A stretch of 64,000 bases of DNA, from assembly GCF_011207455.1 (NCBI RefSeq), contig NZ_CP048877.1, positions 488,576-552,575 on the forward strand, written 5' to 3'. The notes beneath the pieces are model-generated. The model was not told the DNA's origin, did no database searches, and saw only the letters and a program-made list of their open reading frames with translations. Source of the DNA: Thermosulfuriphilus ammonigenes. Its GTDB lineage: Bacteria > Desulfobacterota > Thermodesulfobacteria > Thermodesulfobacteriales > ST65. The position numbers and the translations under genes are program-made. Every line of letters begins with the position of its first letter. The first letter of the stretch is position 1. This document shows, in pieces, positions 1-21,618 of this stretch.

Positions 1-3000
1 TAGACGACCTGGCAGCGGAAGGCCTTTTGCACCCGGAAACAGCTCAGATTTTCCGTACCAAAGAGGGCAAGGCCTTTGAGCTTTATCAGCATCAAGTAGA
101 GGCCATCCGCAAAGCAGCGGCAGCCCAAAGCTTTGTGGTCACCTCAGGTACCGGCTCCGGAAAAAGCTTCTGCTACTTTATCCCTATCATTGACGCTATC
201 CTCCGCGAGCCTGATCTCCCCCGTCCCGTAGCCTTGATCATTTATCCTTTAAACGCTTTGGCCAATTCCCAGCTTGCCACTTTAGAGGAGCTCTCTCGCT
301 CTTATTTTAAAAGAACTGGCAAGGACTTTCCTATAACTTTTAAACGCTACACCGGAGAGACACCCGAAGAAGAAAGAGAAAAGATCCGCCGCAACCCTCC
401 TCATATTCTTCTCACCAACTACGTTATGGCCGAACTCCTCCTTGTGCGCCCTGAGGATCGGCCTCTCCTCACCTCCGCCTCTAAAAGGGAGGCTCCATTT
501 TTCCTGATCTTTGACGAACTGCATACCTATCGCGGGCGTCAGGGGGCCGATGTGGCCATGCTGGTAAGGAGGTTTAAGGCCAGACTAAACCGCAAGCCCA
601 TCATCCACATCGGTACCAGTGCGACCATGGTGGCCTCGCGCCAGGCCAGCTTAGAAGAAAGGCGGGCTGCGGTGGCCGAATTCGCTTCCCGGTTCTTCGG
701 CCATCCTTTTGGGGCAAACGACATCATCGACGAAACTTTAGAGCCTGTAACCGTCGGGGGGCCTCCTTCCGAGGAAGAGCTTAAAGAGGGTTTCGCCCGG
801 CCTTTTCCTGAGGAAAGGAATGCTTATCTGAAACATCCCCTGGTCCGGTATCTGGAATATGAAATGGGGCTTGAGGAAAGGGACGGTGCACTTGTTCGCC
901 GGGAACCAAGGCCCCTTTCCGAAGTGGCCAAAAAGCTAGCTTCCTTACTCGGGAAAGAGGAAGAAGAATGTTTGAACAAACTCCGTGCAGCTCTCCTTCA
1001 CGGCATACGTTTTCAGGTTCCCGGAGAACCGCCTCTTTTGGCTTTTAAGCTCCATCAATTTATCAGTCAGGGGCAAGCCGTTTACGCCACCCTTGAGCCC
1101 CTTGAGAAAAGGCGTTTTAGCCTGGAGCGACAGATCACCCAGGAGGAAGATACCCTCTGGGCCCCGCTTCGCTTCTGTCGTATCTGCGGCCAGGATCATT
1201 ATTGCGTAGTCCAAAGATCCGAAGACCAGTTTGAAGCCGCCCTCCCAGGGGAAGATTATACCGAAGAGGGCCTGAAGGGGTATCTCACTCCCCATTCTCC
1301 GGACCTGCCCGAGCTTGAAGAACTCATTCCTTCTGAATGGCGTGATCGTAGGGGAAGACTTAAAAATCCGTGGAAAGATAGGGTCCCACGTCTAGTTTGG
1401 GTTTTTCCTGACGGAAGATTCTCCTGGGATGAGGTAGAAGGGGCGGTACCCATGTGGTGGCAGGCAGAGCGGTTTTGGATCTGCCCCCGGTGTGGGGAGT
1501 ATTACACCGCCCGTGAAGGTGAATATTCCAAACTAGCCGCTCTTTCTACGGAAGGCAGGTCTTCGGCCACCACGGTCTTAGCCCTTTCCTTCTTGCGAAG
1601 GGCCCGGGAGACCGGGGCCCTAGAAGCAAAACTTTTATCTTTCACGGACAACCGCCAAGACGCTTCCCTTCAGGCTGGCCACTTTAATGATTTTGTTCGG
1701 GTGGCCATGCTTCGCTCAGCCCTTTATCAGGCCCTCAAAGAGCATGGCCAATTACAATTCGACAACGTGGCCCGGGAAGTGGTCAATCATCTGGGGCTTG
1801 AAATCGGCGCCATAGCCCAAAACCCGGAACTTGATCCTCAAAGTTCTCAAGCCCAGGAAGTTTGGACGACTTTTGAGAGCTTGACGGAATACCGAATATA
1901 CGAAGACCTCCGCCGCGGCTGGAGGGTTACCCAACCGAACCTGGAAGACGTTGGTCTCCTCCGCCTGGAATATCTGGGCCTTTCGGAACTGGTCGAAAGA
2001 GAGGAGCTATTTGAAGACATACCGGGCTTAGACGAAGCAGCGCCTGCAGAGAGAAAAGAGGTCTTAAAGGCCGTTCTTGACTATTTTAGGAAACGTCTGG
2101 CCATTGAAACAAAGGCCCTTAATCCTAAGCACCAATCTTCTCTGAGACGTCGCTCCCAAGAGTACTTAAATGAATTCTGGGGGCTTGACCCTGACAATCC
2201 GTCTATGCTCAGGGCAAGCCTTATGGTACGCCCAAGAGGAAACGGGTTTCTGCCCAATGTTCCCCATTTTAAACTTACTTCCCGTTCTCTTTTGGGGCGT
2301 TATATTCAGCGCACGCTAAGCCTTTCCCCTCAGGAAACAGAACTCTTTTTAGACCATGTTCTTGAGTTGCTCCTTAAGCAGGGCTATCTCCGAAGGATCG
2401 AAAACAAAGGAGAACACCAATGCTTTCGGCTGGAGTCTTCTTGTATGCGGTGGGTCCTTGGAGACGGAACCCCGCCTCCTCCTGACCCTGTTTGGAGCAA
2501 GCGGAGCACAAAACGAACTTCTGAAGTAAACAAATTCTTTCTCAAATTTTATCAGGAAGGGGCCCGAAATTTAGCCTATTTTGAGGCCCGGGAACACACC
2601 GCCCAGGTGGTAACCCCTAGGGAAAGAGAAAGACGCGAAAGGCGCTTTAGGGGAGAAGAGAAGCCTCCCCTGCCTTATCTGGTCTGTTCTCCCACCATGG
2701 AGCTTGGTATAGATATCGCCGACCTTGATACCGTGCACTTACGAAACATCCCTCCTACCCCGGCCAACTACGCCCAGCGCAGCGGGCGGGCCGGCAGGCA
2801 GGGTCAACCAGGCTTGATCGTCGCCTATTGTGGAGCTTACAGCCCGCACGACCAATACTTCTTTAAAAACCGCCAGGAGATGGTGGCCGGAAACGTTAGA
2901 GCCCCAAGGATTGACCTTACCAACGAAGCCCTCATCGAAGCCCACCTTCACGCGGAATGGTTGGCCCAAGTAAGCCTTCCTTTAAGGAATTCTATCCAGG

Positions 3001-4850
3001 AAGTGATTGAGCTCGAACAAGAAGATTTGCCTTTAAAAGAGACCGTCAGATCCCAATTAGAGCTTTCCGACCGGCGTTTAGGCGAACTTCGTCTTCGGTT
3101 AGAAAACATCTTGGCCCAGGACCAGGAAGAACTAAAGAAGGCAGGCTGGTTTAGTGAAAATTGGCTTGAAACCAAGATTAATAACGCCGCGGAGACCTTT
3201 GACCGGGCCTTTGACCGCTGGCGCGAACTTTTTAAGGCCGCAAACGCCCAGTTGAAAGAAGCTCAACAGCTCATGTGGAGCACCAAAAAAGAAGATCAGG
3301 AAAGAGGGCGGCACCTTCAAGAAGAGGCCCTGCGACAAAGAAATCTTCTCCTCCAGGAAGGAGTGGCTCGGGAGGAAGGAGATTTTTATCCTTATCGTTA
3401 TCTCGCCAGCGAAGGCTTTCTCCCCGGATATAATTTTCCGGCTTTACCGGTAAGGGCCTGGGTGCCGCGGGGAGAACAAGGCGAGTTTATTTCTCGCCCC
3501 AGATTCCTGGCTATCCGGGAGTTCGGACCACAAAATATCGTTTACCACGAAGGGTCTAAGTGGGAGGTTAGAAAATTCCAGACCCCTCCGGGAGGGCTTC
3601 GAAAGCGATTAAGTTTCAAGAAAATTTGCCTCAATTGTTCGGCTTTTACCAACGCCGAAGACGACTGCTGTCCGGTCTGTGGTATTGTCTTTGACGGATC
3701 AACTTCAGAAATCATTCGCCTTTTGGAAATGCCCAATGTTTCTTTGAGACGCCGGGAAAGAATAACCTGTAACGAAGAAGAACGAATCCGCCAGGGCTAC
3801 GTGCTCCAGATAGCCTATCGTTTTGCCCCTGCGGAAGGCGGGCTACGCCTTATTGAAGGAGAAGTTCCCGAGCTTTTGGAACTCCAATATGCCCCTTCAG
3901 CTACCATCTTGGTCGTTAATCATGGCTGGCGGACGCGGCGGACGGAGGGTTTTCTCGTAAACCTCGAAACCGGAGACTTAACAAACGAAAACGAAGTCGA
4001 GACTATGCGCGCAGCGGAAAGGGAAAATATAAGCCGGGTGAAGCTCGGTGTCTGGGATACCCAAAACCTTTTGCGCTTGCAACTGAAAGACGAAACCCTA
4101 AGGAATGATCTCGTGTTTGAGACCACGCTCATGTATGCGCTTGAAAGGGGAATCGAGAAGGTCTTTCAACTTGAGGACTCTGAACTGGTGGCCGAGGCCG
4201 TGGGGCAGGGAGAAGGGAGAGCCATTTTGTTTTACGAGGCTTCTGAAGGTGGGGCCGGGGTATTGCGCCGCCTCTTGGAGGACCCTCAGGCTTTGGCAGA
4301 GGTGGCGGTTGAGGCCCTGAAAATCCTCCACTTTGATCCTGAAAGCGGAAAAGATCTTGCAGAAGACGATCACTTCGCCTGTTACGAATGTCTGCTCAGT
4401 TTTTCCAATCAGCTTGTGGGCAAATACCTCAATCGGCACCGGGTTAAGGACTTTCTGATGCAGCTTAAAGAGGCACCGGTGAAACTCAAACACGGAGAAA
4501 AGAGCAGAGACGAGCACTACCAATGGCTTCTAGACCGGATAGATCCTCGTTCTCCCTTAGAAAGACATTTCCTGGGTTTCCTTTACGAAAGGGGCTTGCG
4601 CCTTCCCGACGAGGCCCAAAAACCCATAAAGGAGCCTCGTTGTTTGGTGGACTTCTTTTATGAACCCAATGTATGTGTTTTTTGCGATGGCGAGGTTCAT
4701 GATCACCCGGATCAACAGGAGCAAGACCAAAAAATCCGTCAGGAACTGCGAAGTCTCGGATACCGGGTTATTGCCATTCGGTATGACCAAGGTCTCGAGG
4801 AACAAGTCTCCAATTACGCCGAGGTCTTTGGAATCTTAAAAAGGCCTTAG
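1..4850 (+). CDS. DEAD/DEAH helicase with DUF1998 and C-terminal nuclease-like domain, 5'-truncated
   Basis: Very large SF2 helicase, probably of the DruE/YprA(MrfA)-like group that acts in phage defence or DNA repair. The reading frame is open to the left edge; a TTG lies at 27, but the residues before it (DDLAAEGLL) read as natural protein, so the true start is outside the window. Numbering from 27: Walker [10 protein letters not shown] (39-47), DEAH-type box FDELH, motif III GTSAT, a restart of the second RecA domain at [10 protein letters not shown] and motif [12 protein letters not shown]. CxxC pairs (CRICG, CPRCG, later CLNC/CPVCG) suggest zinc ribbons. A DUF1998-like segment ([14 protein letters not shown]) follows. 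The last ~100 residues ([24 protein letters not shown]) resemble a Vsr/DUF559-type PD-(D/E)XK fold. Partner genes, if any, would lie upstream. Confidence 0.85.
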
Positions 4851-6260: not shown

Positions 6261-6337
6261 GCCCCCGTAGCTCAGGAGGATAGAGCACGGGATTCCTAAT
6301 CCCGGAGTCGCAGGTTCGAATCCTGCCGGGGGCACCA
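6261..6337 (+). tRNA. tRNA-Arg(CCU)
   Basis: A full cloverleaf can be folded by eye: acceptor stem GCCCCCG/CGGGGGC, D arm GCTC...GAGC, anticodon stem CGGGA/TCCCG enclosing loop TTCCTAA (anticodon CCT), T arm GCAGG/CCTGC with loop TTCGAAT, discriminator A and an encoded CCA end at 6335-6337. The 3' 49 bases are repeated at 23298-23346, so this gene is the integration site of the 17-kb element and its 3' half is element-borne. The 5' flank holds a 9-bp stem hairpin (6071-6093) with no T run and no recognised gene between 6027 and 6260. Confidence 0.95.
6289..6337 (+). repeat. att direct repeat, left (tRNA side)
   Basis: 49 bases covering the anticodon arm to the CCA end of tRNA-Arg, identical to 23298-23346. 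The flanks differ (cac before and ata after here; gat before and taa after at the right copy), so these are the exact limits of identity and contain the crossover site. Confidence 0.92.
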
Positions 6338-6381: not shown

Positions 6382-6408
6382 TTTCCCCACCTATTCCCCA
6401 CCTGGAAG
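6382..6408 (+). repeat. Arm-type integrase site, left copy
   Basis: 27-bp sequence starting tttccccacctattccccac, itself two copies of TTCCCCACCT one base apart. It lies 45 bp inside the left att repeat and is repeated exactly, in the same orientation, at 23173-23199 near the right end. In an excised circle the two copies would flank attP, as arm sites for tyrosine integrases do. A looser pair, tcaagg(g)tttcagg, also occurs at 6344-6357 and 23252-23264. Confidence 0.7.
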
Positions 6409-8953: not shown

Positions 8954-9427
8954 TTAACACCATGCTTTAAGCCGCTTATTTACTTCTTCTTTGGGCAACC
9001 AGCTATCCTTAGCCAAGATCTTTTTAAGAGCCTGACAAGCTACTTTAGGAGAAATCAGACCTCTTTTTAAGAACTGATCCAGGACCCATAAAATTCCATG
9101 ATAAGGAATATTGCAAGCCTTACAAAGTTTCCTCAGTTTACTGTCTCCGGTTAAAAGGATTACCTCCTTTTGAACAGTTAGCTCCTTAGCACACAAAAAG
9201 GCACTAGCATCGGCCAAAGAAAGGCTCCGGTGTTCAGCACGGAGCGCTAAAATCTCAGTTACATCTACAAACTCAAAAACTTCGGCCTCAAATTCGGGCA
9301 GTAAAGGCTCGTCAATTTCAAAAAGAACCAAGTCTGTTATTACGATTTTACCGAGATTACTAAGTAGAGCTGTTAGGCCGCTGTGGCATAAATCAATTAA
9401 AACCGATGCATCGAGGACCAGGATCAT
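8954..9427 (-). CDS. PIN-domain protein, putative toxin
   Basis: 157-residue PIN-fold ribonuclease candidate. Acidic active-site residues occupy the usual places: D6 (VLDASVL), E37 (LFEID), D73 (LADASAF) and D95 (LLTGDSKLRK). PIN toxins of this type cut tRNA or mRNA when freed from their antitoxin. Its ATG overlaps the end of the upstream XRE-ImmA gene by four bases (ATGA), so the two are translationally coupled and driven by one operator-bearing promoter. The C-terminal 60 residues (helical, Lys-rich) extend beyond the minimal PIN fold. Confidence 0.8.
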   Translation of the reverse strand: MILVLDASVLIDLCHSGLTALLSNLGKIVITDLVLFEIDEPLLPEFEAEVFEFVDVTEILALRAEHRSLSLADASAFLCAKELTVQKEVILLTGDSKLRKLCKACNIPYHGILWVLDQFLKRGLISPKVACQALKKILAKDSWLPKEEVNKRLKAWC

Positions 9428-10461
9428 CTACAGGGTAAATCTTCAACAGATGGAAGGTCAAGCAACTCTTTGGCCCTGAGCGGAGAGATAAAGCCTTCCT
9501 CTAAAGCCCTACACACAAGCCTTTTAAACCTCAAAGGTTCTTCCCGGGGGTATTCTGGTCCAGGTTCTCTCTTGTGCCATCCCTTGGCTCTTAGCATTTG
9601 ATAGAGACCTCTAAACCTTCTCTCGTTAATGATTCCTAGCTCCCTTGCCCGGTAGATTAAGGCCTGAACGCTTAGGCCATACTTGAGCTTGAGAAAAACC
9701 AACTCGCTTAACCCCATGGAAGCCTTTAACTCCCTGGCCGCTACCGCTTGGGGAATTAAAAAGGCCCCAGCAAACCGGAAACAAGCTTTCTCTTCTTCTA
9801 GGTGTTTATCTTTAATCCTCAAAACCAAATGTCCAAGCTCATGGGCCAGAGAAAACCTTAAACGGTCCCCAGGAAAAACTCTATTGGCTGCTATAACAGG
9901 GTTTCCGTTAGCCCAAAAAGCGAAAGCGCTACACTTCTCTGGCATCTCAAAAAGCCCTACCTTTATGCCCTTGTCCTCAAGCAGGGTAACCAAACTGGCA
10001 ATTGGAGCTAGCCCAAGGCCCCACCGATTTCTTAACTCTTCGGCGGCCCTTTCTACTTCTTCGTAAGTGGCCACTTCCCTACCGAAAGGTTCATACTCTA
10101 TGGACTCCCCAAGGAGATCTTCTATTTCGAGATAGTTCTCAAGCCAAGCTCTAACTCTTTCAAAAAGGGCTTCTTTTTCCTTTTTGGGAAGGCTTCTATG
10201 GGCCCGATATTCTATCGGGCTAAACTTGATCTTCTTCGGTGGCTTTAAGAAAAAGTCAGGGTTTAAGCCGCAAGCTCGGCTTATCTTGATGATAACTTGG
10301 GAGTTGGGAGCTATTAGCCCCCTTTCATATTTGGAAATAGCGGTAGGGCTGAGGCCAACTTCCTTGGCCAAAGCTCTTAGGCTAAGCCTACTTATTTTCC
10401 TTGCTCGCTTGATTCTTTCCCCTACCAGTTTAATGAGATCTTCCCTTTTTAAAGTCTTCAT
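9424..10461 (-). CDS. XRE-type HTH / ImmA-IrrE metallopeptidase fusion, putative antitoxin-regulator
   Basis: 345 residues. An XRE HTH occupies about residues 10-65 (LSLRALAKEVGLSPTAISKYERG). The middle carries an ImmA/IrrE (COG2856) zinc peptidase with HELGH at 207-211 and a downstream EEEKACFRFAGAFLIP segment that supplies the third ligand in this family. Such proteins repress their own operon and often pair with a toxin; the overlapping downstream PIN gene fits. The promoter in front carries an inverted repeat straddling its core elements (10462-10500), which suggests autoregulation. The alternative role, cleaving a repressor to induce the element, is also known for ImmA proteins. Confidence 0.85.
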   Translation of the reverse strand: MKTLKREDLIKLVGERIKRARKISRLSLRALAKEVGLSPTAISKYERGLIAPNSQVIIKISRACGLNPDFFLKPPKKIKFSPIEYRAHRSLPKKEKEALFERVRAWLENYLEIEDLLGESIEYEPFGREVATYEEVERAAEELRNRWGLGLAPIASLVTLLEDKGIKVGLFEMPEKCSAFAFWANGNPVIAANRVFPGDRLRFSLAHELGHLVLRIKDKHLEEEKACFRFAGAFLIPQAVAARELKASMGLSELVFLKLKYGLSVQALIYRARELGIINERRFRGLYQMLRAKGWHKREPGPEYPREEPLRFKRLVCRALEEGFISPLRAKELLDLPSVEDLPCR

Positions 10462-10526: not shown

Positions 10527-10697
10527 TTAACCTTTCCCCTGGCCCTCCTCGACTTCCTTCCCGTATTTGCGGAGGAGGTCTCGCATGGCCTCCTCGAGGA
10601 GGTCGTTTAATCGGCGGTTTTGCTCCACAGCCAGGTGCTTTAACTCCTTCAAGAGGTCTTGATCTAACCGAGTAGCAAACATTTTGCGTTCGCCCAT
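10527..10697 (-). CDS. Ribbon-helix-helix DNA-binding protein
   Basis: 56 residues (MGERKMFATRLDQDLLKELKHLAVEQNRRLNDLLEEAMRDLL) with the strand-helix-helix pattern of CopG/Arc-type repressors. I start it at ATG 10697, which has GGAGGGT 6-12 bases upstream; a further in-frame ATG at 10712 overlaps that site. It is divergent from the small-gene operon beginning at 10859, and the space between them contains four ATAGCTA repeats, likely operators for this protein. Confidence 0.8.
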   Translation of the reverse strand: MGERKMFATRLDQDLLKELKHLAVEQNRRLNDLLEEAMRDLLRKYGKEVEEGQGKG

Positions 10698-10720
10698 ATT
10701 TTTACCCTCCATTAAAAATT

Positions 10721-10804
10721 ATAGCTATCAATACCAATTTAAGCAAGATAGCTAGACCGCTTGACATATTCGCTTTAGCGTGCTATATAGCTAGATAGCT
10801 AGAC
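10721..10804 (+). promoter_or_regulatory. Divergent control region with ATAGCTA iterons and promoter
   Basis: Four copies of ATAGCTA (10721-10727, 10748-10754, 10787-10793, 10795-10801). Two of them sit within 12-bp direct repeats agatagctagac at 10746-10757 and 10793-10804. A plus-strand promoter TTGACA (10761-10766), 17 bases, TATATA (10784-10789) lies between these repeats, and two iterons overlap or abut its -10 box. RHH repressors bind short tandem sites of this kind, so the neighbouring RHH protein is the natural candidate. Confidence 0.65.
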
Positions 10805-10858
10805 AAATAAAATGGGAGGCCCCCGAAAGTAAACCTGAGCCAAGCCAAGAGAGACCCG

Positions 10859-11020
10859 ATGGGGTTGAAGACGGAGCGTGTTCAGTATTGGCGCAACGGG
10901 ATCATGGTAACGGCTCAAATGCCCCTTGAGACGGCCCGTCGCTTAGTGGCTAAGGGTGAAGCCTATGTGATTACAGACCAGGCCATTGGGGACATCCGGG
11001 AGCTTGGCTCTCTGGTCTAA
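10859..11020 (+). CDS. Small hypothetical protein, first gene of a plus-strand operon
   Basis: 53 residues (MGLKTERVQYWRNGIMVTAQ... ending DIRELGSLV) from ATG 10859, preceded by a purine-rich AGAGAG stretch. It lies 70 bases after the promoter at 10761-10789 and is followed after 24 bases by the next gene with a strong ribosome-binding site. The sequence has the alternating pattern of a small alpha/beta protein; no family is recognised. It reads like a real gene because of operon position and lack of rare features, but nothing further supports it. Confidence 0.5.
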   Translation: MGLKTERVQYWRNGIMVTAQMPLETARRLVAKGEAYVITDQAIGDIRELGSLV

Positions 11021-11044
11021 ACACATCGAAAGGAGGGAGGAGCT

Positions 11045-11683
11045 ATGAGAAAGCAAGCGTTTCCCAAGTATTACAATCAAATCCAGGCAACCCTTAGAGA
11101 TGCCCTTCTCCCGTCCTTTGGGGCAGGAGAAGCCATCGGGCGGCTCATGGTGGCCGCGGCACGGGGCCAGCGGTCAGCCCATGAGCTTCTGGCCCTCCGG
11201 GAAAAGTGGGCTGAAACTCTGGGCGAGGCCCCGGACCACCAGGCCGTGAACGCCCTCGATTACAAGGGCATCTCCGAGCTTGCCGAAAACCCCATCCTCT
11301 CAGACCGAGACCTTGAAGCCCTGGGCCTCCTACTCCAGAAAATCTCTAAGGCCCAGGCGGAAAATGGCCTTTCCTGGGAGTTTAACCGCAAACTAACCGG
11401 TGAGTGGCTCGATAGACTCTCCCGCAAGATAAGCCTCCTTGCCAAACTGGGCCCTAACCCCGAAAAGCTCAAGGAGAGGCTGGAGACCTTGGCCGAGGAG
11501 GTAGAAAAGATTGGGGAGATCCTGACCCGGACGGTGCCCTGGGAAGATCCGGCAAGAGAGAGGGCCTGGCAGGTAAAAAAGGAAACCGAAGAGCAAGTGG
11601 AGAACCTGGTCGAGGAGGCCCTTGAGGAAGAAGACAAGGAAGATATGCCATGTTTTGGGAAGGCCTCAAGCTTTTCGGAATAG
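11045..11683 (+). CDS. Hypothetical helical protein
   Basis: 212 residues, preceded by AAAGGAGGGAGGAG directly before ATG 11045. The second half (about residues 125-205) is rich in Glu, Lys and Leu with heptad-like spacing (EKLKERLETLAEEVEKIGEIL, TEEQVENLVEEALEEEDKED), so a coiled coil is likely. No enzymatic motif is visible and I do not recognise the family. It is the largest member of the RHH-controlled operon of the integrative element. Confidence 0.7.
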   Translation: MRKQAFPKYYNQIQATLRDALLPSFGAGEAIGRLMVAAARGQRSAHELLALREKWAETLGEAPDHQAVNALDYKGISELAENPILSDRDLEALGLLLQKISKAQAENGLSWEFNRKLTGEWLDRLSRKISLLAKLGPNPEKLKERLETLAEEVEKIGEILTRTVPWEDPARERAWQVKKETEEQVENLVEEALEEEDKEDMPCFGKASSFSE

Positions 11684-11742
11684 CGACTATGGGCACCCTG
11701 GTGGGTAAAGGGCTTTTCCTAGCTCTGGCGTGGCTCTTTTAG
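11650..11742 (+). CDS. Very small predicted membrane peptide
   Basis: 30 residues (MFWEGLKLFGIATMGTLVGK...) with one uninterrupted hydrophobic segment of about 20 residues, overlapping the end of the 212-residue gene in another frame. AAGGAAG lies about seven bases before ATG 11650. Size and hydrophobicity recall holin-like or small toxic membrane peptides, but this is shape only; the frame could be fortuitous. Confidence 0.35.
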   Translation: MFWEGLKLFGIATMGTLVGKGLFLALAWLF

Positions 11743-11795
11743 GCTCTCCGGCCCGGTGCCTCCTCGGTGCCGGGCCGGATCGAGGAGGTGGTCTC

Positions 11796-11993
11796 ATGCT
11801 GACCACCGAACCCGAACCCTGCCCTTTCGGGATAGAAGACGCCGTGAGGTGCCCATACGGTGCTCACGTGCTTGACCTTAACCGTGTCTCCGGTTGGCGG
11901 TATGAGTGTCGGAGGCTCGGCGGTCTATGCCCGGCCTACAAGCAAAGCATCTCCAGAGAGGAACTGGCCCGGAAAGTGTTCGGGAAGAGGTAA
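11796..11993 (+). CDS. Small cysteine-rich protein
   Basis: 65 residues from ATG 11796, chosen because CGAGGAGG stands seven bases upstream; longer in-frame starts lack such a site. Four cysteines in CPFG, RCPYG, YEC and LCPAY could bind zinc or an iron-sulfur cluster. Family unknown. It is the fourth gene of the operon. Confidence 0.6.
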   Translation: MLTTEPEPCPFGIEDAVRCPYGAHVLDLNRVSGWRYECRRLGGLCPAYKQSISREELARKVFGKR

Positions 11994-12020
11994 AGCCCGT
12001 ATTATACTTAACTTGATGCC

Positions 12021-12275
12021 ATGGCGAGGACGAAAGCGGAGCTAAAGCGGGAGATTGAGGAAGCCTTTGGCCTGGTCAAGGGTTGGGCTAACATTGCCCG
12101 GCTTGTGGGCTGTAGCCGGAATACTCTCATGGCCAGGTGGAGAGAGTGGGGCTTGCCGATTGTCTTCCTGGGCGGGACTCAGAGAAAGACCCCGGCCATC
12201 TACCTGGACCATCTCCTCTTGTGGAGAAGCACCAAACTAGAGGAAACCTACCGGTCTGGGCTTAATCGGGCTTGA
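12021..12275 (+). CDS. HTH protein, putative regulator
   Basis: 84 residues. KGWANIARLVGCSRNTLMARWREWGLP (about 20-46) fits a helix-turn-helix of the Fis/homeodomain-like type found in small phage and plasmid regulators. No clear Shine-Dalgarno precedes ATG 12021, but a TATTAT box at 12000-12005 could make it leaderless from its own promoter. It follows the cysteine-rich gene by 27 bases. The 250 bases after it, up to the convergent HELGH gene, hold nothing I can support. Confidence 0.6.
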   Translation: MARTKAELKREIEEAFGLVKGWANIARLVGCSRNTLMARWREWGLPIVFLGGTQRKTPAIYLDHLLLWRSTKLEETYRSGLNRA

Positions 12276-12528: not shown

Positions 12529-13140
12529 TCACGCAGAACCGCCCGCCGCAGCCTTGTTTTTGTCGTAGCCCACCAGCTCAGCGATTAGGCGGTTTTCCTC
12601 CTTTGAACGAAACGGGCTCGGGAGCCCGGTCAACCAAACGGCTGTAGTATCGGCATGGACCTCCTGGAGCCAACCCTCCACCTTGCACTCCTCAAGGACG
12701 TGGCCTAGAAGGTGATGTCCAAGCTCATGAGCCAGGACGTAAGCCTTTACCTTCGGCTCGAGCCCGGCTTTGAGTAAAATGAGTCTGTTCTGTCCTTGTT
12801 TAGCGTGCCTAACCAACTTCCAAAAAATTTCCTTTCTGGCTAGATCTTGGTCTATTAAGTCAACCCCTGGCGGAGTTTGAATTTCCTCTCTAAGCTTTTT
12901 ACGAACCTTTTCTAAGGGACTGAGGGCAAGAGCCAGACCATGACAAGCGTTGAGGAGGACCTCGCACACTTCGAGCCCGCATTCATTTATCAGACCTTCC
13001 ACTTCCCTAAGTCCAAGAGGGACCTTGGAAAGGATCGGAAACTTGTAAAGTAAGGAGCCAATAAGGGCGAAGAAGTTTTCCCAAGACGGGTCTTGGATAT
13101 AGCGGCTTCTCATCGTTAAGTAGACGGCATTTACGTTCAT
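12529..13140 (-). CDS. ImmA/IrrE-like zinc metallopeptidase
   Basis: 203 residues from ATG 13140 with AGGTG upstream; a longer frame to 13233 would use a less likely start. HELGHHLLGH (about 138-147) is the zinc-binding helix and EVHADTTAVWL about 20 residues on would supply the third ligand. Unlike the other ImmA-type gene in this element there is no HTH domain. It lies 92 bases after a coiled-coil gene on the same strand, and the gap carries a GC-rich hairpin. The substrate is unknown; by analogy it may cleave a repressor or its neighbour. Confidence 0.7.
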   Translation of the reverse strand: MNVNAVYLTMRSRYIQDPSWENFFALIGSLLYKFPILSKVPLGLREVEGLINECGLEVCEVLLNACHGLALALSPLEKVRKKLREEIQTPPGVDLIDQDLARKEIFWKLVRHAKQGQNRLILLKAGLEPKVKAYVLAHELGHHLLGHVLEECKVEGWLQEVHADTTAVWLTGLPSPFRSKEENRLIAELVGYDKNKAAAGGSA

Positions 13141-13232
13141 AGATGCACCTCTTGCCGGTCTTGGCCTTTGGGCACGCCAGGTGTTTTTGTCAGGATAGGC
13201 CCGGTCCGTTTTAAGCGAACCGGGTCCGGACA

Positions 13233-13955
13233 TTACTTAAGAAGTCCCAGGGCCAAATCCACGGCCTCGATCTTACGGGCTTCGTCAAGGCTAGGGTCCA
13301 CCTTGTGGGCCAGAAAGTCGAGGCCTTCCTCCCTTAGTGCCTCATCTAAAGAAGGCCAGTATAGCCGGTACTCGAAACGTCCCGGGTTGACTTTCTGCAA
13401 AACCTCAACCTTGGCATGGGGGCGAGTCCAAGGCTGCTCCAAGAGGTTACCCAAAGCTTCTTCCGGTTTTTTGTCCCGCTTGTAGCCAAAGTCCTGCATA
13501 GCGAATTCCATGTTAGAAAGCCAATTGAGGCCCTGCTTTAAGATCGCATGGATCTTAGCGAGCTCTTGGGCTCTCTCGTTGTAACGCTCCAGCTCCCTTT
13601 TGGTGCGCTCAATCACCTTCTTCCGCAGCTCAAGATAAACTTCCACGCGGACACGCTGGAGCTCTTTGTGTTTCTCTTCAAGCCGCTCTCTCAAGCTCTC
13701 CAAGGCCAACCGGAGCCCTTCTAGCTCTAACTCATTAGACTCTATCCGCTTTCTCTTCTTCTCTGCTTCCTTCCGAGCATCTTCGGAGAGTTCTCCAAGG
13801 TTGATCTTGGCTAAGATTGCGCCGATCTCCTCCTTGAGGGTTCCGTTCTGCCCTTTGAGAGCCGCAGCCTTTTGCTCAAGATCTTGGATTTTGGCTTCGA
13901 TTTTCTCGATCTCACGCTGTATTTTCTCAAACTTCTTTTTGACTTTGATCTTCAT
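13233..13955 (-). CDS. Long coiled-coil protein
   Basis: 240 residues with an excellent ribosome-binding site (AGGAGGTG) before ATG 13955. Residues 1-135 are almost wholly charged heptads (EKIQREIEKIEAKIQDLEQK, RERLEEKHKELQRVRVEVY) predicting a long coiled coil, possibly hairpin-shaped because of a break near residue 70. The C-terminal 100 residues (NWLSNMEFAMQDFGYKRDKK, RFEYRLYWPSLDEALREEGL) form a separate globular part that I cannot assign. It precedes the HELGH peptidase gene and could be its sensor or target. Confidence 0.7.
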   Translation of the reverse strand: MKIKVKKKFEKIQREIEKIEAKIQDLEQKAAALKGQNGTLKEEIGAILAKINLGELSEDARKEAEKKRKRIESNELELEGLRLALESLRERLEEKHKELQRVRVEVYLELRKKVIERTKRELERYNERAQELAKIHAILKQGLNWLSNMEFAMQDFGYKRDKKPEEALGNLLEQPWTRPHAKVEVLQKVNPGRFEYRLYWPSLDEALREEGLDFLAHKVDPSLDEARKIEAVDLALGLLK

Positions 13956-14043: not shown

Positions 14044-15747
14044 TTAAGCAAGCGGTCCATGAGCCCCCCTCCTGATACCCTTTTTGAAGGCCCACTCGGC
14101 TATCGCCAGGGTTATAAGGTCCGAGGCCTCGCCCTTGGTTTTAGGCCTGGGCAAACCCCACCGCTCGCAAAACTCGACCTGCCTCTCCGAGGGGGGATAG
14201 TTCCTCCAGGAGGCCTCCGGCTTGTAAAGGGCCGCCGCTCCTTGGTCTCGGAGCACTCCGTTAGCCACACCAAAGGCCAGCTCGATATCCACCGGGCGGG
14301 AAGTGAGAGGCCGGATGCCTTTCCGCCCGATTAGGTAAGGCACGAAAAGCTCCCCTCTCCGGGTCCTATTGACCTGCCGGATGTAGAGAGTTCGTCCATC
14401 TCCCAGGCTTGCCGCCCAACCGTGCTCCCCTTTTGCCCAACAGAAAGCCGAAGGATCGAAGATCTGGCGCTCCTCCACCCCAAGGATCTGGGAAGCCAGG
14501 GCAAGGTCAAGCTGGACACTCTCACGGCTTCCCCTTCCTACGGCCTCTTCGAGCTCGACACGACGTTTGAATTTTGGATCAAGGTCCGCAATGGAGACCA
14601 GGCTGTGGCGGCTCGAATTGTCCACCAGGTCAATAACCAGGCAGTCCTTCTTTCCCGGGTAGAGCCTGAGCCCTCTCCCCACCATCTGCACGTATAGGGC
14701 CTTGCTTGCCGTAGGACGGGCCAGGAGAAGACAGTCCACCGCGGGGTCGTCAAACCCTTCAGTTAGCACCTGGCAGTTTGTGATGACTGGGATTTCACCC
14801 CGAGCGAAGGCCTTGAGCATGGCTCGACGCTCCTCAAGAGGTGTCTCTCCGGTCACGGTTTGAGCCTCTACCCCGTAGGCCCGAAAGGTCTCGGCCAGAT
14901 CGCAGGCGTGCTTGATGTCCACGCAAAAGGCTATGGCTTTGCGTCCCCGGGCCAGCTCAAGCCAGGTCTCGACGGCAAAACGGTTCCTCTCCGTGGTGTT
15001 CACTGTCTCCGCCAGCTGACTCACGGAGAAGTCCCCGGCCCGATAGTCGAACCATACTTCGGAGAGATCGCACCCGGTCCTGACCGCCCGGTAGTCAATC
15101 CCACACAGGAAGCCGTCCGCTATAGCCTCAAGGACGGAATACTCAAAGGCTACCTCCTCGAAGACCTCTCGGAGGCTCTCTCCGTCCTTGCGGTAGAGAG
15201 TCGCCGAAACCCCCAAGACCTTCATGGTGGGGTTAAGCTCAAAGAGCCGGTCAAGGGCCTTTCTGTAGGTGCTTGCCGCCGCATGGTGGGCCTCATCGAT
15301 CACGAAGAGATCAAAGCCCTGGGAGAGCCGGTCAAGCCGACGCCATAAGGTTTGAATAGAGGCCAGGACTATGGGACGATCAGGATCGAACCGCTCGGCC
15401 TTGATCACTACCGGCTCCGGAACCTCCGGCCACACCAGGGAAAGCTTTTCAATGGGCTGCAAGATCAGCTCATCCCGATGGGCCACGATGAGGACACGGC
15501 CTCCGGCTTCTACTACACCCCGAGCAAGGGAGAGGAAAACGATAGTCTTGCCACAACCCGTAGGGAGCGAAATCGCTACCGATTGCCGTCCGTCGATGTA
15601 GGCGCCCAAGATGCGCTCAAGAGCTCTGGTCTGATAGGGCCTCAAAGGCAGATCGCTTTTTGGCTCCACTAAGAGCCAGGGGAAGGCTTGACCTGTCCCG
15701 GCTTTTTGGACTACTTTGCTCAGAGTCTCAATTCCCGTCATATCCAT
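14044..15747 (-). CDS. DEAH-box SF2 DNA helicase
   Basis: 567 residues from ATG 15747 (GGAG just upstream; a longer frame to 15795 overlaps the previous gene). The helicase core has a Q-motif-like LRPYQTRALERI, Walker A LPTGCGKT (about 63-70), LFVIDEAHH, GVSATLYR, ITNCQVLTEGFDDPAVDCLL and motif VI QMVGRGLRLYPGK, the RAD25/UvrB-like arrangement. The C-terminus (about 400-567) is a less conserved domain with YPPSERQVEFCERWGLPRP, seen in phage and plasmid helicases. It probably works with the adjacent Prim-Pol protein in replicating the element. Confidence 0.88.
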   Translation of the reverse strand: MDMTGIETLSKVVQKAGTGQAFPWLLVEPKSDLPLRPYQTRALERILGAYIDGRQSVAISLPTGCGKTIVFLSLARGVVEAGGRVLIVAHRDELILQPIEKLSLVWPEVPEPVVIKAERFDPDRPIVLASIQTLWRRLDRLSQGFDLFVIDEAHHAAASTYRKALDRLFELNPTMKVLGVSATLYRKDGESLREVFEEVAFEYSVLEAIADGFLCGIDYRAVRTGCDLSEVWFDYRAGDFSVSQLAETVNTTERNRFAVETWLELARGRKAIAFCVDIKHACDLAETFRAYGVEAQTVTGETPLEERRAMLKAFARGEIPVITNCQVLTEGFDDPAVDCLLLARPTASKALYVQMVGRGLRLYPGKKDCLVIDLVDNSSRHSLVSIADLDPKFKRRVELEEAVGRGSRESVQLDLALASQILGVEERQIFDPSAFCWAKGEHGWAASLGDGRTLYIRQVNRTRRGELFVPYLIGRKGIRPLTSRPVDIELAFGVANGVLRDQGAAALYKPEASWRNYPPSERQVEFCERWGLPRPKTKGEASDLITLAIAEWAFKKGIRRGAHGPLA

Positions 15748-15755
15748 TCTCCAAG

Positions 15756-15782
15756 CCGTGGTCTTTGGGCCACGGTTTTTTA
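15756..15782 (+). terminator. Terminator-like hairpin facing against the replication genes
   Basis: Plus-strand CCGTGG, 8-base loop, CCACGG, then six T. It sits exactly between two minus-strand genes, so on the coding strand it is only a hairpin without a T run. It would stop plus-strand (antisense) transcription entering the Prim-Pol gene, or act as an RNA hairpin near the helicase start. Confidence 0.45.
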
Positions 15783-16025
15783 TTGCGTGACCCACCTCTC
15801 GCGCAGATCTTTGAAGGACACCTTGGGCTTTAGCCCCGTGCGCTTGTAAAAGCGTCGCATCTTCTTGACCGAGCCAACGCCTACAATGCGCCAGGAGCCG
15901 TCCGGCATCTTTTGCTCAATCAGGGGTTGGCCGGTTCGCTGGGCTACCCGGATGAAGGCTTGCTCCAGCTCCTCATCGGTGAGGTTAAGGCCAAACATGG
16001 ACAGAAAAGTTTTGGCATCAAACAT
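15780..16025 (-). CDS. Small hypothetical protein between replication genes
   Basis: 81 residues from ATG 16025, which overlaps the Prim-Pol stop and has GGAGGGT seven bases upstream. The sequence (FDAKTFLSMFGLNLTDEELEQAFIRVAQ..., GSVKKMRRFYKRTGL) resembles no family I can name; the Lys/Arg-rich end could bind nucleic acid. Its position between primase and helicase genes, with overlapping translation, suggests a replication accessory role. Confidence 0.65.
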   Translation of the reverse strand: MFDAKTFLSMFGLNLTDEELEQAFIRVAQRTGQPLIEQKMPDGSWRIVGVGSVKKMRRFYKRTGLKPKVSFKDLRERWVTQ

Positions 16026-19023
16026 CGCAAACCCTCCAAGCATCTTCATTGATTTCCAAGCCGATAGCCCAGCAAAACTCTTGGGCCGCCTCGATGTCCC
16101 CCAGGCCTCGTGTCCTTTGCAGGCCACCGGGGGTCCGAATCTGGACCTCGAAGAGAGGAAGGTCAGGATGAGCCTTCCGGAGGCGGGCAAGAAGCTTGGG
16201 CCACCACTTCCGGCCCGAGAAAAAAATCTCTTTATAGGGGGGCGGGACCCCCTTGGGATTCCCGGAATTTCCCATTTGTCCTTGAGGCAAGGGGTTCCCG
16301 GTTCCCTTTAAAGATCTCTTATAGGGGGGCAGGAACCCCTTTGCTTCCCTATTTCTGGGGACTTCCTGGGAAGTTTCGGGAGAAGCGAAGGGGTTCCCAA
16401 TGCCCTTTAAGAGAATCTCGACCTGCTCCCAAAAGGCCCTCACCTTCTCCGGATAAGCCTGCTCGATCCGCCGCCAGAGCTCCGCCCGGACTTCAAGGGG
16501 TGGGATCTCCTCCTTGCGCCCAATGCCCAAGAGCAGAGCGATCTCCCGCCAAACGAAGTAAAAAACCGCAACCCATAGCTCTAAAATTATCGTGCTCAGA
16601 TCCTGGGCTCCGCGGACCTCCTGAGGCTCGATTACCTCCCGAGGCCCACCAAGCCAGGGCTGGAAGGGCCAGCGAGGCGCAATGACAAGGACTTTCTTAC
16701 CGGAGAAGCGGACCGGGCGAATGCGGTGCGCCTCTTGCCAGGCTTCAGCCCTGGCCAGGAGATCGAGCCAGTCAGTCCATTCCTCTGCGGAGAGCCCGAG
16801 CGCAAGGGCCACGTCGTAAAAAGCGCCTGGAGAGGGCACCGGCAGGCCGAGGAGGATAACGGCATCGTAGCTTTCAAATTCGTTTGTGCCTCTACTATCT
16901 GTTCCGAAATGGTGACTAACTACAATTCGACGGCCGTCTTGATCAACAGCCTTTTCGACTTTAGATTTTATCGTCTGGTGGCAGAAAACTAGAATTTTCT
17001 CAGCTTTAATGGCCTTAAGTGCCTCCTTCAAAGCCTTTATGGCTGTTTTTTGTCCTTTTTGCTGGCTAACCGCCGTTTTACTCACGCTCCGTCTGAGCCA
17101 GGCCGTCCGCACTTCGAGAGGCACCCGAATATCCAAGATCTGCATTCCCGGCCTTTTAAGAGCCCGTTCCACCACCCGGGAGCAGGCCGTGGCATCTAGC
17201 ACGACCAGGCGGCCACGCCACTTGTCTGGGACGGGGTTGACCACGCGGCGGAGTTCGATCGGTCTAGCGGGGTTCTTGCGGGCTACCAGGTAGGCCTGCC
17301 CCTGGCCCACGACCTCCTCGAGCCAGCGGAAAGCGTTAAGATTTATCCCCTTGCGGAAAAGCGCGGGTTTCCGGTAAGTTTTGAAGACCTGGGTGATTTC
17401 GTCTCGGATAACCGGGCCAAGCTCCGTGAGGTCAAGGTCAAGCCACTCGGCGAGGTTTTTTTTACCCGCCCAGGGTCCGAACTCTACCGGCCTGGCATAA
17501 ATCCGACCTTCTAAAAGCTTTTTGCCATTGGTGGCCCGGTGAAGTTCATCTCCAAGCTTGAGCACCGCCTCCGCCAGCCTCATTGTAGCCGAGTCCTCCC
17601 GGAAAATCGCCCGAAGGGTGCGGAGGCCGTCTAGAGGGCATGACACCACTTCAACGAGGCCGTGGGGTTCTTCGTCGAGAATCCAACACTTAGCCTTCCT
17701 CAAAAAATCCTTAATCAGATGGCAGGCTAGCTTATGAGAGGCGAAAAACAGTCCTCTTTCGCGGTTTATCCCCTCAAACTGCCGCAAAAACTCACACTTC
17801 TCGCTAAAAGCGGCGTTTTTCGGGTTATGAGGGCAGGTAGGGCAGATGATCTCTCCTGAATCGTAGCCCAAATCGTGCGCGCGCTTCACCTCTTCCCATT
17901 TCAAGCAAGTCCGTGCGTTGCGGCCTTCAAACACTACGACCGGCTCCGCCGTTAAAGCCCGGGCCTCCTCGCCTAGCTCTCGAGCGAGGCGAAGGGTAGG
18001 CACGGACCAAACCACTGGCCTTGGCCCTTCTCGGCAGAGCCATTCAAGGGTTGTCCGGCTCTTCCCCACTCCCGGGAGCACCGTGACGATGAGGTCACCT
18101 CCCCCGCGCAAGACCTCAAGGATGAGGCTCCGGGCCTCCCTTACAGAGGCCGCGGGGACTTCATGGGGAGGGGCCTCTTCGCCTTCTTCAACCTCGAGAT
18201 TCTCGACGAGATCCTCCCGCCCCAGTTCCCTTAACCAGGCCGCCAGAGGGAGCCCGCCCTGTTCCTTAGCGGCAGGGCAGGTGGTGCGGAAATCAAAAAG
18301 ACGGCCCGTGTCAGTCATCACCCAGGGATTGCCCTTCGACTTCCCGCACAGGGGGCAGGCCTTAAGTCGCCAGGCCGTCCGGTCTCCGAGAGAGATCTCT
18401 TTGACTGCCTCCGCTCCCACCTCAGCCAGAATTTCCCCCAAAGCCTCCCGAGTAAGCTTGCGACCGGGCTTTGGGAACTTCACCGTCCCCACGGCCCGGG
18501 CAAGCTCTTTGAGACGCTGTTTTTCCCGGATTGCATCGAGGACGAATTTCGGCAGAGGAGGAATCTCCGACACGTCCCAGGGAGCCAGGAGCCACGTATA
18601 GCGGAAGTTCGGATCTTTCCGGTGTTGCGTGGGGGGCAGGGGCACCAGCGAACCGGTGCCCTTCACTTCAACGAGGCCGATCCCTGGCAGGTCGAGGACG
18701 GTGGTAGGAATCTCCTCCTGCCCCGCGGAGAAGTAGAAATGAAAGCCACGCCTGGTCTTCGTGAACGGCGTTGTGAAGTGAATTTTCGTGTGCAACCGCT
18801 CCGCAACCCTCGGGTCGTCAATATCAAGAACCACGATCCCCGAAGGCCGCCCCGCGAGGAGGCCCAGGCCATGAGGAGGGACCGGAAAGAGAACCTCCCA
18901 CCTTCGCCATTCCTCCCGCCCCGGAGGCCTTTCACAAAACTGCCGCCAGGGAAAGGGAGGACGGACCTCTCCTGGAAGGAGAGGGGTCACGGGCCATTTC
19001 AGGTCAAGATAGCGCCCTACCAT
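16018..19023 (-). CDS. Prim-Pol (bifunctional primase/polymerase) and helicase fusion, replication protein
   Basis: 1001 residues. The N-terminal archaeo-eukaryotic Prim-Pol domain has LDIDDP (D67, D69), TRRGFHFYF (H95) and VEVKGTGSLVPLPPTQH. A zinc-binding segment follows (CPLCGKSKGNPW at 223-234 with CPAA at 249). The ATPase part begins with Walker A LPGVGKS (316-322) and includes an acidic box CWILDEEPH. Such fusions prime and unwind DNA for plasmids, phages and satellites. The stop overlaps the next gene and the start is three bases after the excisionase-like gene, so this is one replication operon. The C-terminal 120 residues are low complexity (repeated PPYK and GNP motifs). Confidence 0.85.
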   Translation of the reverse strand: MVGRYLDLKWPVTPLLPGEVRPPFPWRQFCERPPGREEWRRWEVLFPVPPHGLGLLAGRPSGIVVLDIDDPRVAERLHTKIHFTTPFTKTRRGFHFYFSAGQEEIPTTVLDLPGIGLVEVKGTGSLVPLPPTQHRKDPNFRYTWLLAPWDVSEIPPLPKFVLDAIREKQRLKELARAVGTVKFPKPGRKLTREALGEILAEVGAEAVKEISLGDRTAWRLKACPLCGKSKGNPWVMTDTGRLFDFRTTCPAAKEQGGLPLAAWLRELGREDLVENLEVEEGEEAPPHEVPAASVREARSLILEVLRGGGDLIVTVLPGVGKSRTTLEWLCREGPRPVVWSVPTLRLARELGEEARALTAEPVVVFEGRNARTCLKWEEVKRAHDLGYDSGEIICPTCPHNPKNAAFSEKCEFLRQFEGINRERGLFFASHKLACHLIKDFLRKAKCWILDEEPHGLVEVVSCPLDGLRTLRAIFREDSATMRLAEAVLKLGDELHRATNGKKLLEGRIYARPVEFGPWAGKKNLAEWLDLDLTELGPVIRDEITQVFKTYRKPALFRKGINLNAFRWLEEVVGQGQAYLVARKNPARPIELRRVVNPVPDKWRGRLVVLDATACSRVVERALKRPGMQILDIRVPLEVRTAWLRRSVSKTAVSQQKGQKTAIKALKEALKAIKAEKILVFCHQTIKSKVEKAVDQDGRRIVVSHHFGTDSRGTNEFESYDAVILLGLPVPSPGAFYDVALALGLSAEEWTDWLDLLARAEAWQEAHRIRPVRFSGKKVLVIAPRWPFQPWLGGPREVIEPQEVRGAQDLSTIILELWVAVFYFVWREIALLLGIGRKEEIPPLEVRAELWRRIEQAYPEKVRAFWEQVEILLKGIGNPFASPETSQEVPRNREAKGFLPPYKRSLKGTGNPLPQGQMGNSGNPKGVPPPYKEIFFSGRKWWPKLLARLRKAHPDLPLFEVQIRTPGGLQRTRGLGDIEAAQEFCWAIGLEINEDAWRVCDV

Positions 19024-19026
19024 CTC

Positions 19027-19218
19027 TTAACATCCGGAAGTCTTCACCTCTCCCTCGGCGAGCCACCTTTCGAGGTCCTCTACCCGGTAGAAAACCCGCC
19101 GGCCTTTTTTGAAAAACCGAGGTCCTCGCCCCTGACTCCGAAGGTTCGCAAGAGTCTTGGGCGAGAGGCCGGGAAACAGCTTAGACACCTCGGTAGCAGC
19201 GATGAAAAGCGGTTTCAT
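19027..19218 (-). CDS. Excisionase-like helix-turn-helix protein
   Basis: 63 residues (MKPLFIAATEVSKLFPGLSP..., GPRFFKKGRRVFYRVEDLER) of the MerR/AlpA-type HTH_17 fold used by excisionases and element regulators. The start at 19218 has GGGAGG seven bases upstream. It is the first gene of the replication operon, just ahead of the Prim-Pol gene, so it may regulate replication, act as recombination directionality factor, or both. It is 2.6 kb from the integrase. Confidence 0.75.
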   Translation of the reverse strand: MKPLFIAATEVSKLFPGLSPKTLANLRSQGRGPRFFKKGRRVFYRVEDLERWLAEGEVKTSGC

Positions 19219-19334
19219 TTCTTCCTCCCGTAGGCTTTTTTGAGTTCTTGGGGGGAAAGAATAAGACAAAGGCCCTTCACAAAAAGGCCGAAAAATTGCG
19301 AAAATTTGGCCCCTTAAGAGGGCAAGGGAGGGGC

Positions 19335-21083
19335 TTAAGGGAAGAGTTTGCGGCCCTTAATTACCTTTTTGTTGATCTCCCCGGGGTCAAGAGGCTTAAG
19401 GGCCTCTCTCTTTTCCGGAGCTTTTTCGGCAAGGTAGGAAAGGAGGGCTTTTACACTCAGAACCCCCGGTCCGATGAGGTTCAAAACCTTGATGCTCTCT
19501 TTAATAATCCAATCCATTACCTCATTGTGACTTCTAGGGATCAGATATCCCGGCTTCATACGGGCCAGCTTTTGGCGCTTTTCGTACCATTCCCGATCAT
19601 AAGTCCATTTCTTGAGCCAGTCCTTCACCCACGGGCATTCTCCCCACAATGGCTCCCAAGCCAGTAGCCGAGCAAGAGCGTCCTTGTCTCCTCCTCGGGC
19701 CAGCTGAACATCTCTTTCAAGACTGGCTCCCGGAAGCTTGAGTTTGAGCTTGCCCACCTTTTTGCTTTTCCCCCGAAACCTTTGAGCATAGTTTTTTAGC
19801 TCGCATTTAAGGAAAAGCAGGGCTTCCCTTTTCAGACATTGGAACCAGACAATCTGACAGCAAATGCGAGCTAAAAATACGCCTATACGGAACCTGAAGT
19901 CGTAGAGTTCCTCTTTCAAAGAGTCCAGGGTCTCAGGAGGGAGGAATTTTTGGGCGATCTCTAAAGCAACGCTTTCATGGAAACTAAGGTGCCCTAAGAT
20001 AAGGTGCCCTAAGAGATTAAGGCTGCCTTCTCTTTCAGCCCAGGAATCGACGACTTTCCTTTGAAATGGATCTACCTGTCGATATAATTCGTAAAACTTT
20101 TGCAAGAGAGTGTTCTTTCTCGGTTTCCTTTCTGAGAGCTTGATTTTGAGATCGAAAATCTTCCATAAGTCGGAGAAGGTAGGAAATTCGGCCACGATTT
20201 CTTGAAAAACGCGTTCTGCTCTAAAGCTCAAGATGTCCCACAAGTAAGGATCTATTTCAAAGGCCAAGCGGACGGCCTCAAGAAGATCCTCCCAGGGTTC
20301 TAAGAATTTGGTCTCCAGGCATTCGGCCTCAAGCATATTTTGGGGCAGCCCTTCTTTTACCAGGCTTTTAAGGGCTTGGTCGCCGAAGTAGTCGCTCAAG
20401 TCTTTGGCAAAAGAGATGAGATTCCAAAAAAGGCGCTTAAGTTCTATTCGAACCAGGTGGGGGAGATAGCCTTTTGCCTCCCAAGAAGCCTCAAGCAAGT
20501 TAAGTAGCCTGATTGATGAGTGAGCGCAAACATCGAAGAGATCCATTTGGGGCTTAAAGAGGATTTTTGAGCCACAATCCGGGCATTTTTGGGTTAGCTC
20601 TCCCATACTCAGGAAGTTTTCCCGAGCAAGCTTTCGGAGTTCCTCTCCTTCAAGAAACAAGTCAAAAGTTCCTCGGCATTTCGGGCATCGTGCGTAAAAA
20701 GAAATGGAGTAATGGCCATCAGGATGCCATGAGGAAGATTCTCCCAGGGCAAACCGTTTTGCGTTAAGAATTTCACTTTGTGCCCAGCTGTTCCAATTCT
20801 CCTCGGCCATTTGTAAGGACTGTTTGGCCTTAGCCTGATACTCCTCGCTTTTGAGCCTGGCATTTTCCAAAGCAGGCGGGTCTTTCTCTTGGCTGAGAAG
20901 CCTCCACACTTCAAGACGAATTCGTTCTTTGAGAGCGGCTAAAGCTTCCTCTTCAGACTCGCCTTTCCCAAAACAAGTGGGGAAGATTGAGGAATAGGCC
21001 ACGACTTCCTTGGTGGGCAGTTGAATGAAAGAAGCCTTTTCTAAGACTCTGGCCAGATAGTCATTAAGGGTAAGGGCTTCCAT
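19335..21083 (-). CDS. HicB-like domain fused to zinc ribbon and long helical region
   Basis: 582 residues. Residues 1-65 (SFIQLPTKEVVAYSSIFPTC, KGESEEEALAALKERIRLEV) have the HicB/UPF0150 pattern normally found in antitoxins that fold on a partial RNase H scaffold. Residues 128-175 contain two CxxC pairs (C133/C136, C167/C170), a zinc ribbon. The remaining 400 residues are mostly helical with no motif I know. No HicA toxin gene (about 60-80 residues, double-stranded-RNA-binding fold) is visible on either side, so this is not an ordinary HicAB pair. It stands alone between the VapBC-like pair and the excisionase gene. Confidence 0.7.
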   Translation of the reverse strand: MEALTLNDYLARVLEKASFIQLPTKEVVAYSSIFPTCFGKGESEEEALAALKERIRLEVWRLLSQEKDPPALENARLKSEEYQAKAKQSLQMAEENWNSWAQSEILNAKRFALGESSSWHPDGHYSISFYARCPKCRGTFDLFLEGEELRKLARENFLSMGELTQKCPDCGSKILFKPQMDLFDVCAHSSIRLLNLLEASWEAKGYLPHLVRIELKRLFWNLISFAKDLSDYFGDQALKSLVKEGLPQNMLEAECLETKFLEPWEDLLEAVRLAFEIDPYLWDILSFRAERVFQEIVAEFPTFSDLWKIFDLKIKLSERKPRKNTLLQKFYELYRQVDPFQRKVVDSWAEREGSLNLLGHLILGHLSFHESVALEIAQKFLPPETLDSLKEELYDFRFRIGVFLARICCQIVWFQCLKREALLFLKCELKNYAQRFRGKSKKVGKLKLKLPGASLERDVQLARGGDKDALARLLAWEPLWGECPWVKDWLKKWTYDREWYEKRQKLARMKPGYLIPRSHNEVMDWIIKESIKVLNLIGPGVLSVKALLSYLAEKAPEKREALKPLDPGEINKKVIKGRKLFP

Positions 21084-21204: not shown

Positions 21205-21618
21205 TCATCTTAACCAAACCAAACTCAAAGACTCCTTGCCCTCCAGATGTTTGATCTCCGGGTCTCCAGTTACCAAAGCGGCCTCTCTGAGAAGACTCAG
21301 AGCCACCGCAAAAGCATCCGCATAGGAAAGAGGGTAACGGGCCTTGATCTCGGCAGCCCTCCAGATTTCCTCCTCGGTGGGGAGGAGAAAGTTAATAGGA
21401 CTACCTAAAAGGGTCTGGATAACCTTCTGAGCTTTGGCAAGGCTGTGCTTTTTGGCCGTAATGTAAAAGACTTCACCCGCATTTATCAGGGACATAAAAA
21501 TGGAAATCTCCCCTCTTTCGGCCCTCTCAAGGAGCTCTTGAACTCTGGAGGCAGCGGGCTCATCGCAAAGCCAGGCAATGACTGCCCAGCTATCAAAGAC
21601 CAAACTTCTTCCGCTCAC
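21205..21618 (-). CDS. vapC: VapC-like PIN-domain toxin
   Basis: 137 residues with the four PIN acidic residues D9 (VFDSWAVIAWL), E49 (NAGEVFY), D101 (YADAFAVALS) and D119 (VTGDPE). Length is typical for VapC. The gene overlaps the upstream antitoxin gene by 26 bases. It probably cleaves tRNA when unopposed and stabilises the element, lying between the integrase and the HicB-fusion gene. Confidence 0.85.
   Translation of the reverse strand: MSGRSLVFDSWAVIAWLCDEPAASRVQELLERAERGEISIFMSLINAGEVFYITAKKHSLAKAQKVIQTLLGSPINFLLPTEEEIWRAAEIKARYPLSYADAFAVALSLLREAALVTGDPEIKHLEGKESLSLVWLR

Follow-up and report, generated by a model that had tools for sequence, protein, structure and literature searches.

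A putative RHH-controlled switch and accessory operon in an integrated satellite-like element of a heat-loving bacterium

PICI are elements that a helper phage induces and packages; they are recognised by an integrase with a unique att site, a replication module, a master regulator and the lack of structural and lysis genes, typically measure about 12-15 kb, and carry a terminase small subunit only in some members, so that this gene is not strictly defining (PMC6092414). The satellite families described so far come mostly from well-studied mesophiles (PMC11389934), and among the papers that a literature search matched, none paired phage satellites with a Thermodesulfobacteri- name. The element reported here, contained in the window (the whole 64 kb stretch of DNA that was analysed), seems to be previously undescribed. 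Together with its relatives, it resembles Gram-negative PICI (PMC6092414) by its tRNA att site, integrase, AlpA, primase module and regulator, by the presence of a small terminase (TerS) in some members and by the lack of structural genes; the sizes are 11.9-17 kb. It differs from them in having an RHH repressor and operator repeats, instead of Stl or AlpA alone, in having no known helper and no TerS in the window copy, and in its operon proteins, which matched no known satellite protein in these searches.

Three other systems share single features with the locus. A small RHH protein and arrays of short repeats are also found in the Omega/ParB system of pSM19035 (PMC9499535), but there the repeats are contiguous 7-bp heptads, whereas here they are spaced by 8 bp around a promoter, and no ParA gene was seen. 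The P22 Arc repressor family likewise consists of short Arc-like RHH proteins (phrog_3180, phrog_582); the present protein differs from Arc in that its gene, part of a satellite-like element, is divergent from an accessory operon, and in that its repeats vary between elements. Finally, the predicted fold of an 84-aa HTH protein recalls the P2 Cox/AlpA-type excisionase regulators, although neither its sequence nor its fold gives a significant E-value.

Perfect 49-bp tRNA-Arg repeats and an integrase define the borders of the element, which measures 17,009 bp from start to start of the two repeats (Table 1). The RHH gene and the five small genes facing it lie inside these borders; the proposal of the initial annotation that they form a separate undescribed module is not supported. 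The 27-bp end repeats are possible integrase arm sites, and their core, CAGGTGGGGAATAGGTGGGGAAA, is present also at both ends of a relative element, L018. A PICI-type replication module and regulators were recognised (primase-polymerase, helicase and AlpA; RHH). When the larger ORFs were scanned with Pfam and PHROGs, no capsid, large terminase or lysis gene was revealed in the element, nor any relaxase apart from a weak match, of coiled-coil type, to Relaxase_C (E 0.079). The description of PICI given above largely applies, save for the size (17.0 kb for the window element, 11.9 kb for L018) and the helper, and "satellite" is the best, if unproven, reading of the window element.

Other genes of the element were also recorded. 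A 582-aa protein (19335-21083, - strand) has no significant Pfam or PHROG match. At 8954-10461 (-), an XRE-ImmA/IrrE regulator (PADLOC RmrA, 2.7e-55) precedes a PIN-domain protein (PDC-S70, 2e-9), and the two are likely a toxin-antitoxin or defence pair of the element; at 21205-21853 (-), next to the integrase, lies a PIN toxin-like gene with a gene for an antitoxin-like protein of 86 aa upstream of it. The segment 7290-8344 (+) encodes the last 352 residues of a CHC2-type primase whose full length is 884 aa; it is split by a frameshift, is 78% identical to the primase of L016, and is a remnant of a second related element. Because its left end holds this frameshifted fragment of another primase, the window element may be partly decayed.

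Table 1. Features of the integrated element, in window coordinates
Feature	Position	Strand	Observations
tRNA-Arg(CCT), intact	6261-6337		overlaps left att repeat
att repeat, left copy (forms the tRNA-Arg(CCT) 3' end)	6289-6337	+	perfect 49-bp direct repeat
27-bp end repeat	6382-6408; second copy 23173-23199		
RHH repressor, 61 aa	10527-10712	-	Pfam Antitox_RHH PF20605, 3.4e-7; phrog_3180 Arc-like, 1.2e-10
Operator repeat ATAGCTAT, palindrome	10721-10728		
Operator repeat AGATAGCTAGAC, first 12-bp copy	10746-10757	+	just 5' of -35
Promoter TTGACA-17-TATATA	10761-10789	+	TTGACA 10761-10766; TATATA 10784-10789
Two operator repeats, 8 bp apart (ATAGCTAGATAGCTAGAC)	10787-10804	+	over -10/start
o53, first operon gene	10859-11020	+	two other elements have relatives, with 92% and 83% identity
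o212, helical orphan protein, 212 aa	11045-11683	+	65-70% relatives in three elements only
o30, 30-aa hydrophobic peptide	11650-11742	+	82% identical copy in L022
Four-cysteine protein, 65 aa	11796-11993	+	69% and 63% relatives in L016 and L017
Winged-HTH protein, 84 aa	12021-12275	+	relatives in five other genomes of the order
M78/ImmA-like metallopeptidase	12529-13233	-	62% to L022
Coiled-coil protein	13233-13955	-	49% to L022
Superfamily 2 helicase	14044-15795	-	83-85% to L018 and L022
Primase-polymerase	16018-19023	-	PF09250, 1.7e-15; 63% to L018
AlpA/excisionase-like regulator	19027-19269	-	phrog_66, 1.8e-10
Tyrosine integrase	21856-23049	-	PF00589, 3.8e-31; 66% to L018; adjoins right att copy
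att repeat, right copy	23298-23346	+	perfect 49-bp direct repeat

Between the RHH gene and the five genes, the four ATAGCTA copies initially reported to flank a promoter were all found in place on the + strand (10721, 10748, 10787 and 10795), with an overlapping - strand copy at 10722, and the 12-bp direct repeats said to include ATAGCTA are two copies of AGATAGCTAGAC, the second at 10793-10804. Elsewhere in the 64 kb, a single further copy is present, at 60664. Clustering of ATAGCTA is beyond chance: any 7-mer occurred five times within 108 bp in 13 of 2000 local dinucleotide shuffles, and a rough Poisson estimate puts at ~1e-6 the chance of four ATAGCTA within 81 bp at any place in the window. 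Lag 8 gave the top autocorrelation of the repeat region. The promoter is near-consensus, as had been proposed; a generic promoter scan omits it because it demands a T at position 6 of the second hexamer. The term "iterons", under which the repeats had been introduced, suggests an origin of replication; their spacing and position fit operators better.

In an alignment of the six elements anchored on TTGAC, TTGAC[A/T] was present at the homologous place in all of them, and the hexamer 17 bp further on makes a fair -10 in both the window and L018 and a poorer one in the others. The promoter position is conserved across elements, whereas the operator sequences are divergent, with ATAGCTA in the window, GATAACA in L016, ACTAGTTT and CAAGTAAAC in L017, GATAG in L018 and GCAAGCAA in L021; the first AGATAGCTAGAC copy occupies a position matching that of the differing repeats of L017, L018 and L021. 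Taken individually, the repeat arrays of L018 and L022 are not beyond chance.

The gene divergent from the operon does encode an RHH protein, as both Pfam and PHROGs matches attest. All six close homologues found in 41 genomes of the order lie within these elements, a seventh match being partial (21 residues only). Identity of the RHH ribbon, the DNA-reading strand, correlated with operator identity (r=0.82, 2/720 permutations, 15 pairs from six elements; partial correlation 0.79), a figure that concerns a small number of related elements and segments picked by eye, and that still contains shared descent. For the RHH helix, the correlation was r=0.46 (88/720 permutations, 15 pairs). The ribbon RKMFATPLD is identical in L017 and L021, which share CAAG(T/C)AAACTTG. 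This co-variation supports, without proving, the idea that RHH would bind the repeats.

Related elements occur in other heat-loving bacteria of the same order. L018 (G003) is complete, with 11,889 bp, a 49-bp repeat in tRNA-Arg(TCT), the end repeat in common with the window and no structural genes; its order is integrase, AlpA, primase-polymerase, helicase (83% identical to that of the window), and then RHH, which faces the genes for a CLDC protein, o212, a protein of 82 aa and a small-terminase-like protein. L022 holds helicase, TerS, HTH and an RHH gene that faces o53 and three small proteins, followed by o30. In L016 and L017, the RHH gene faces the o212 operon and is accompanied by a Fic/Doc-like gene and by a CHC2-type primase or the end of one; in L021, which has a TerS fragment, HTH and Doc, it faces the gene for a 118-aa protein. 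The operon is co-directional with the helicase in L018 and inverted in the window. The RHH/operon block is joined to the primase-polymerase in the window and L018, to a DUF3854 primase of 720 aa in L022 and to a CHC2 primase of 884 aa in L016 and L017. Occurring in either orientation and combined with three different replication modules, the block is therefore itself a module, in which the first operon gene varies (o53, CLDC protein, 113/118-aa family) and RHH is constant.

The five small ORFs are real, each having a homologue in at least one related element, and synteny is conserved, L016 having the genes for RHH, o53, o212, the four-cysteine protein and HTH in the same order. The start of o53 at 10859 is doubtful: its homologues start ~13-14 codons further upstream, at an ATG directly after the ribosome-binding site, and in the window this upstream frame is kept but has no ATG, GTG or TTG. 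In L016 (G032:C87, - strand), an in-frame TAG stands at a conserved tryptophan codon in both o53 (2865-3020) and the four-cysteine gene (~1643-1828), which may reflect two independent decay events, an assembly error or amber readthrough. When the five genes are compared in pairs, dN amounts to between about one fifth and one third of dS, with only 30 codons compared for o30. For o212, dN is 0.10-0.28 and dS 0.5-1.3 (dN/dS about 0.2-0.3), and values for o53, the four-cysteine and the HTH genes are similar. These four are maintained genes.

As the initial annotation had it, the operon genes bear no family names. For o212, strong matches were obtained in three other genomes among 119 related ones; a search of 84,980 species genomes returned two of the same three, which are MAGs of Thermodesulfatator and Thermodesulfobacteriaceae. 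No additional match came from 395 genomes belonging to the phylum. Pfam, PHROGs, PADLOC, PDB sequences, the phage collection and IMG/VR yielded no convincing match to o212, whose AlphaFold model has a pLDDT of 43. It is an orphan family under purifying selection, seen in this order only. No match to o53 was found in the phage collection. The window's stand-alone four-cysteine protein corresponds to a domain of a 347-aa protein of L022 (14365-15405; 38%, E 1e-8). The HTH protein is modelled by AlphaFold as a winged HTH (pLDDT 84), and its best credible match among solved structures is 4lhf, a phage P2 DNA-binding protein that we take to be Cox (prob 0.97, E 0.12); the predicted Cox/excisionase-like fold is a lead only. 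The same protein was tried as the window's TerS and dropped, its match to phrog_57 being very weak (E 0.41).

RHH and the five genes are best read as belonging to an integrated satellite-like element, whose control switch and accessory operon they form, and we put at roughly 60% the probability that RHH is the repressor of a phage-satellite-like element, controlling an operon for the mobile phase. In the corresponding scheme, where RHH binding, helper induction, packaging and all functions of the five proteins are what we infer, RHH dimers would bind the repeats, set at 8-bp intervals around both hexamers (-35 and -10) of the rightward promoter, and keep the operon silent. Either a helper-phage product or dilution following excision might lift the repression, and the derepressed operon would make small proteins serving the mobile phase, including the excisionase/Cox-like HTH protein. 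The helical and cysteine-rich products (o53, o212 and the four-cysteine protein) probably target the helper phage or packaging, since the operon of one relative includes a small-terminase-like gene. This gene of L018 speaks for phage interaction or packaging, not for the killing of the host, and the earlier suggestion that the operon genes harm the host is unsupported.

TerS, a gene characteristic of phage satellites, was found in four related elements, L022, L017, L021 (a fragment, 91% identical) and L018. Those of L022 and L017 match phrog_57 (1.9e-18 and 5.8e-15), and their closest viral relative (41% identical) is encoded directly 5' of a GpA-type large terminase (phrog_15, 1.4e-172), beyond which a portal gene is found further along the locus. 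Because the viral homologue immediately precedes this large terminase, the assignment is sound for the phrog_57 type. The L018 protein, encoded two genes after o212 within the operon, belongs to another type, with a weaker match (phrog_2538, 3.7e-8). On viral contigs L039 and L040, too, phrog_57 genes lie near RHH relatives. The satellite TerS had no match in the phage collection, and the primase-polymerase none in IMG/VR; no TerS was recognisable in the window element or in L016. GpA and Terminase_6N large terminases were absent from ten genomes of the order, so that no resident helper is known.

The presence of TerS in four elements with the same switch, together with the absence of a relaxase in the scans and the occurrence of AlpA and a Cox-like HTH, makes it unlikely that the element is a non-viral integrative element or integrated plasmid, moved by conjugation in trans or transformation, with RHH controlling replication or stability genes. 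Such an origin does draw some support from distant relatives of the primase-polymerase on plasmids of Solidesulfovibrio and Desulfohalobium, from the lack of TerS in the window copy and from the toxin-antitoxin-like genes at both of its ends. That RHH and a neighbour form a toxin-antitoxin pair, the operon holding the toxin, is improbable: RHH does match Antitox_RHH, and a Fic/Doc-like gene adjoins it in L016, L017 and L021, but the window has no Doc, RHH stands alone and divergent from the operon with no co-transcribed toxin gene, and the first operon gene changes among elements while RHH stays. A decayed prophage, with RHH and the operon as leftovers of an Arc-like immunity region, would agree with the Arc-like RHH, the frameshifted primase fragment and the RHH gene beside TerS and TerL on viral contig L040, but is very improbable given that a compact, complete 11.9-kb relative likewise lacks structural genes and that the genes are under purifying selection.

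Extending the preferred satellite reading, we tentatively propose a thermophile phage-satellite family in which the RHH strand and its operators co-diversify into immunity groups, and in which o212 would be a new packaging or helper-interference family. If true, such a family in thermophiles, whose repressor is of another kind, would broaden satellite biology. The six repressor/operator pairs, with their differences, offer a test set for the reading of DNA by the RHH strand and for satellite immunity groups. As a minor observation, the spacers of a 39-repeat array in G023 matched the elements no better than reversed-sequence controls did; the repeat of this array is near-identical to that of a CRISPR array in L021, whose end (positions 1-190) abuts the truncated satellite TerS.
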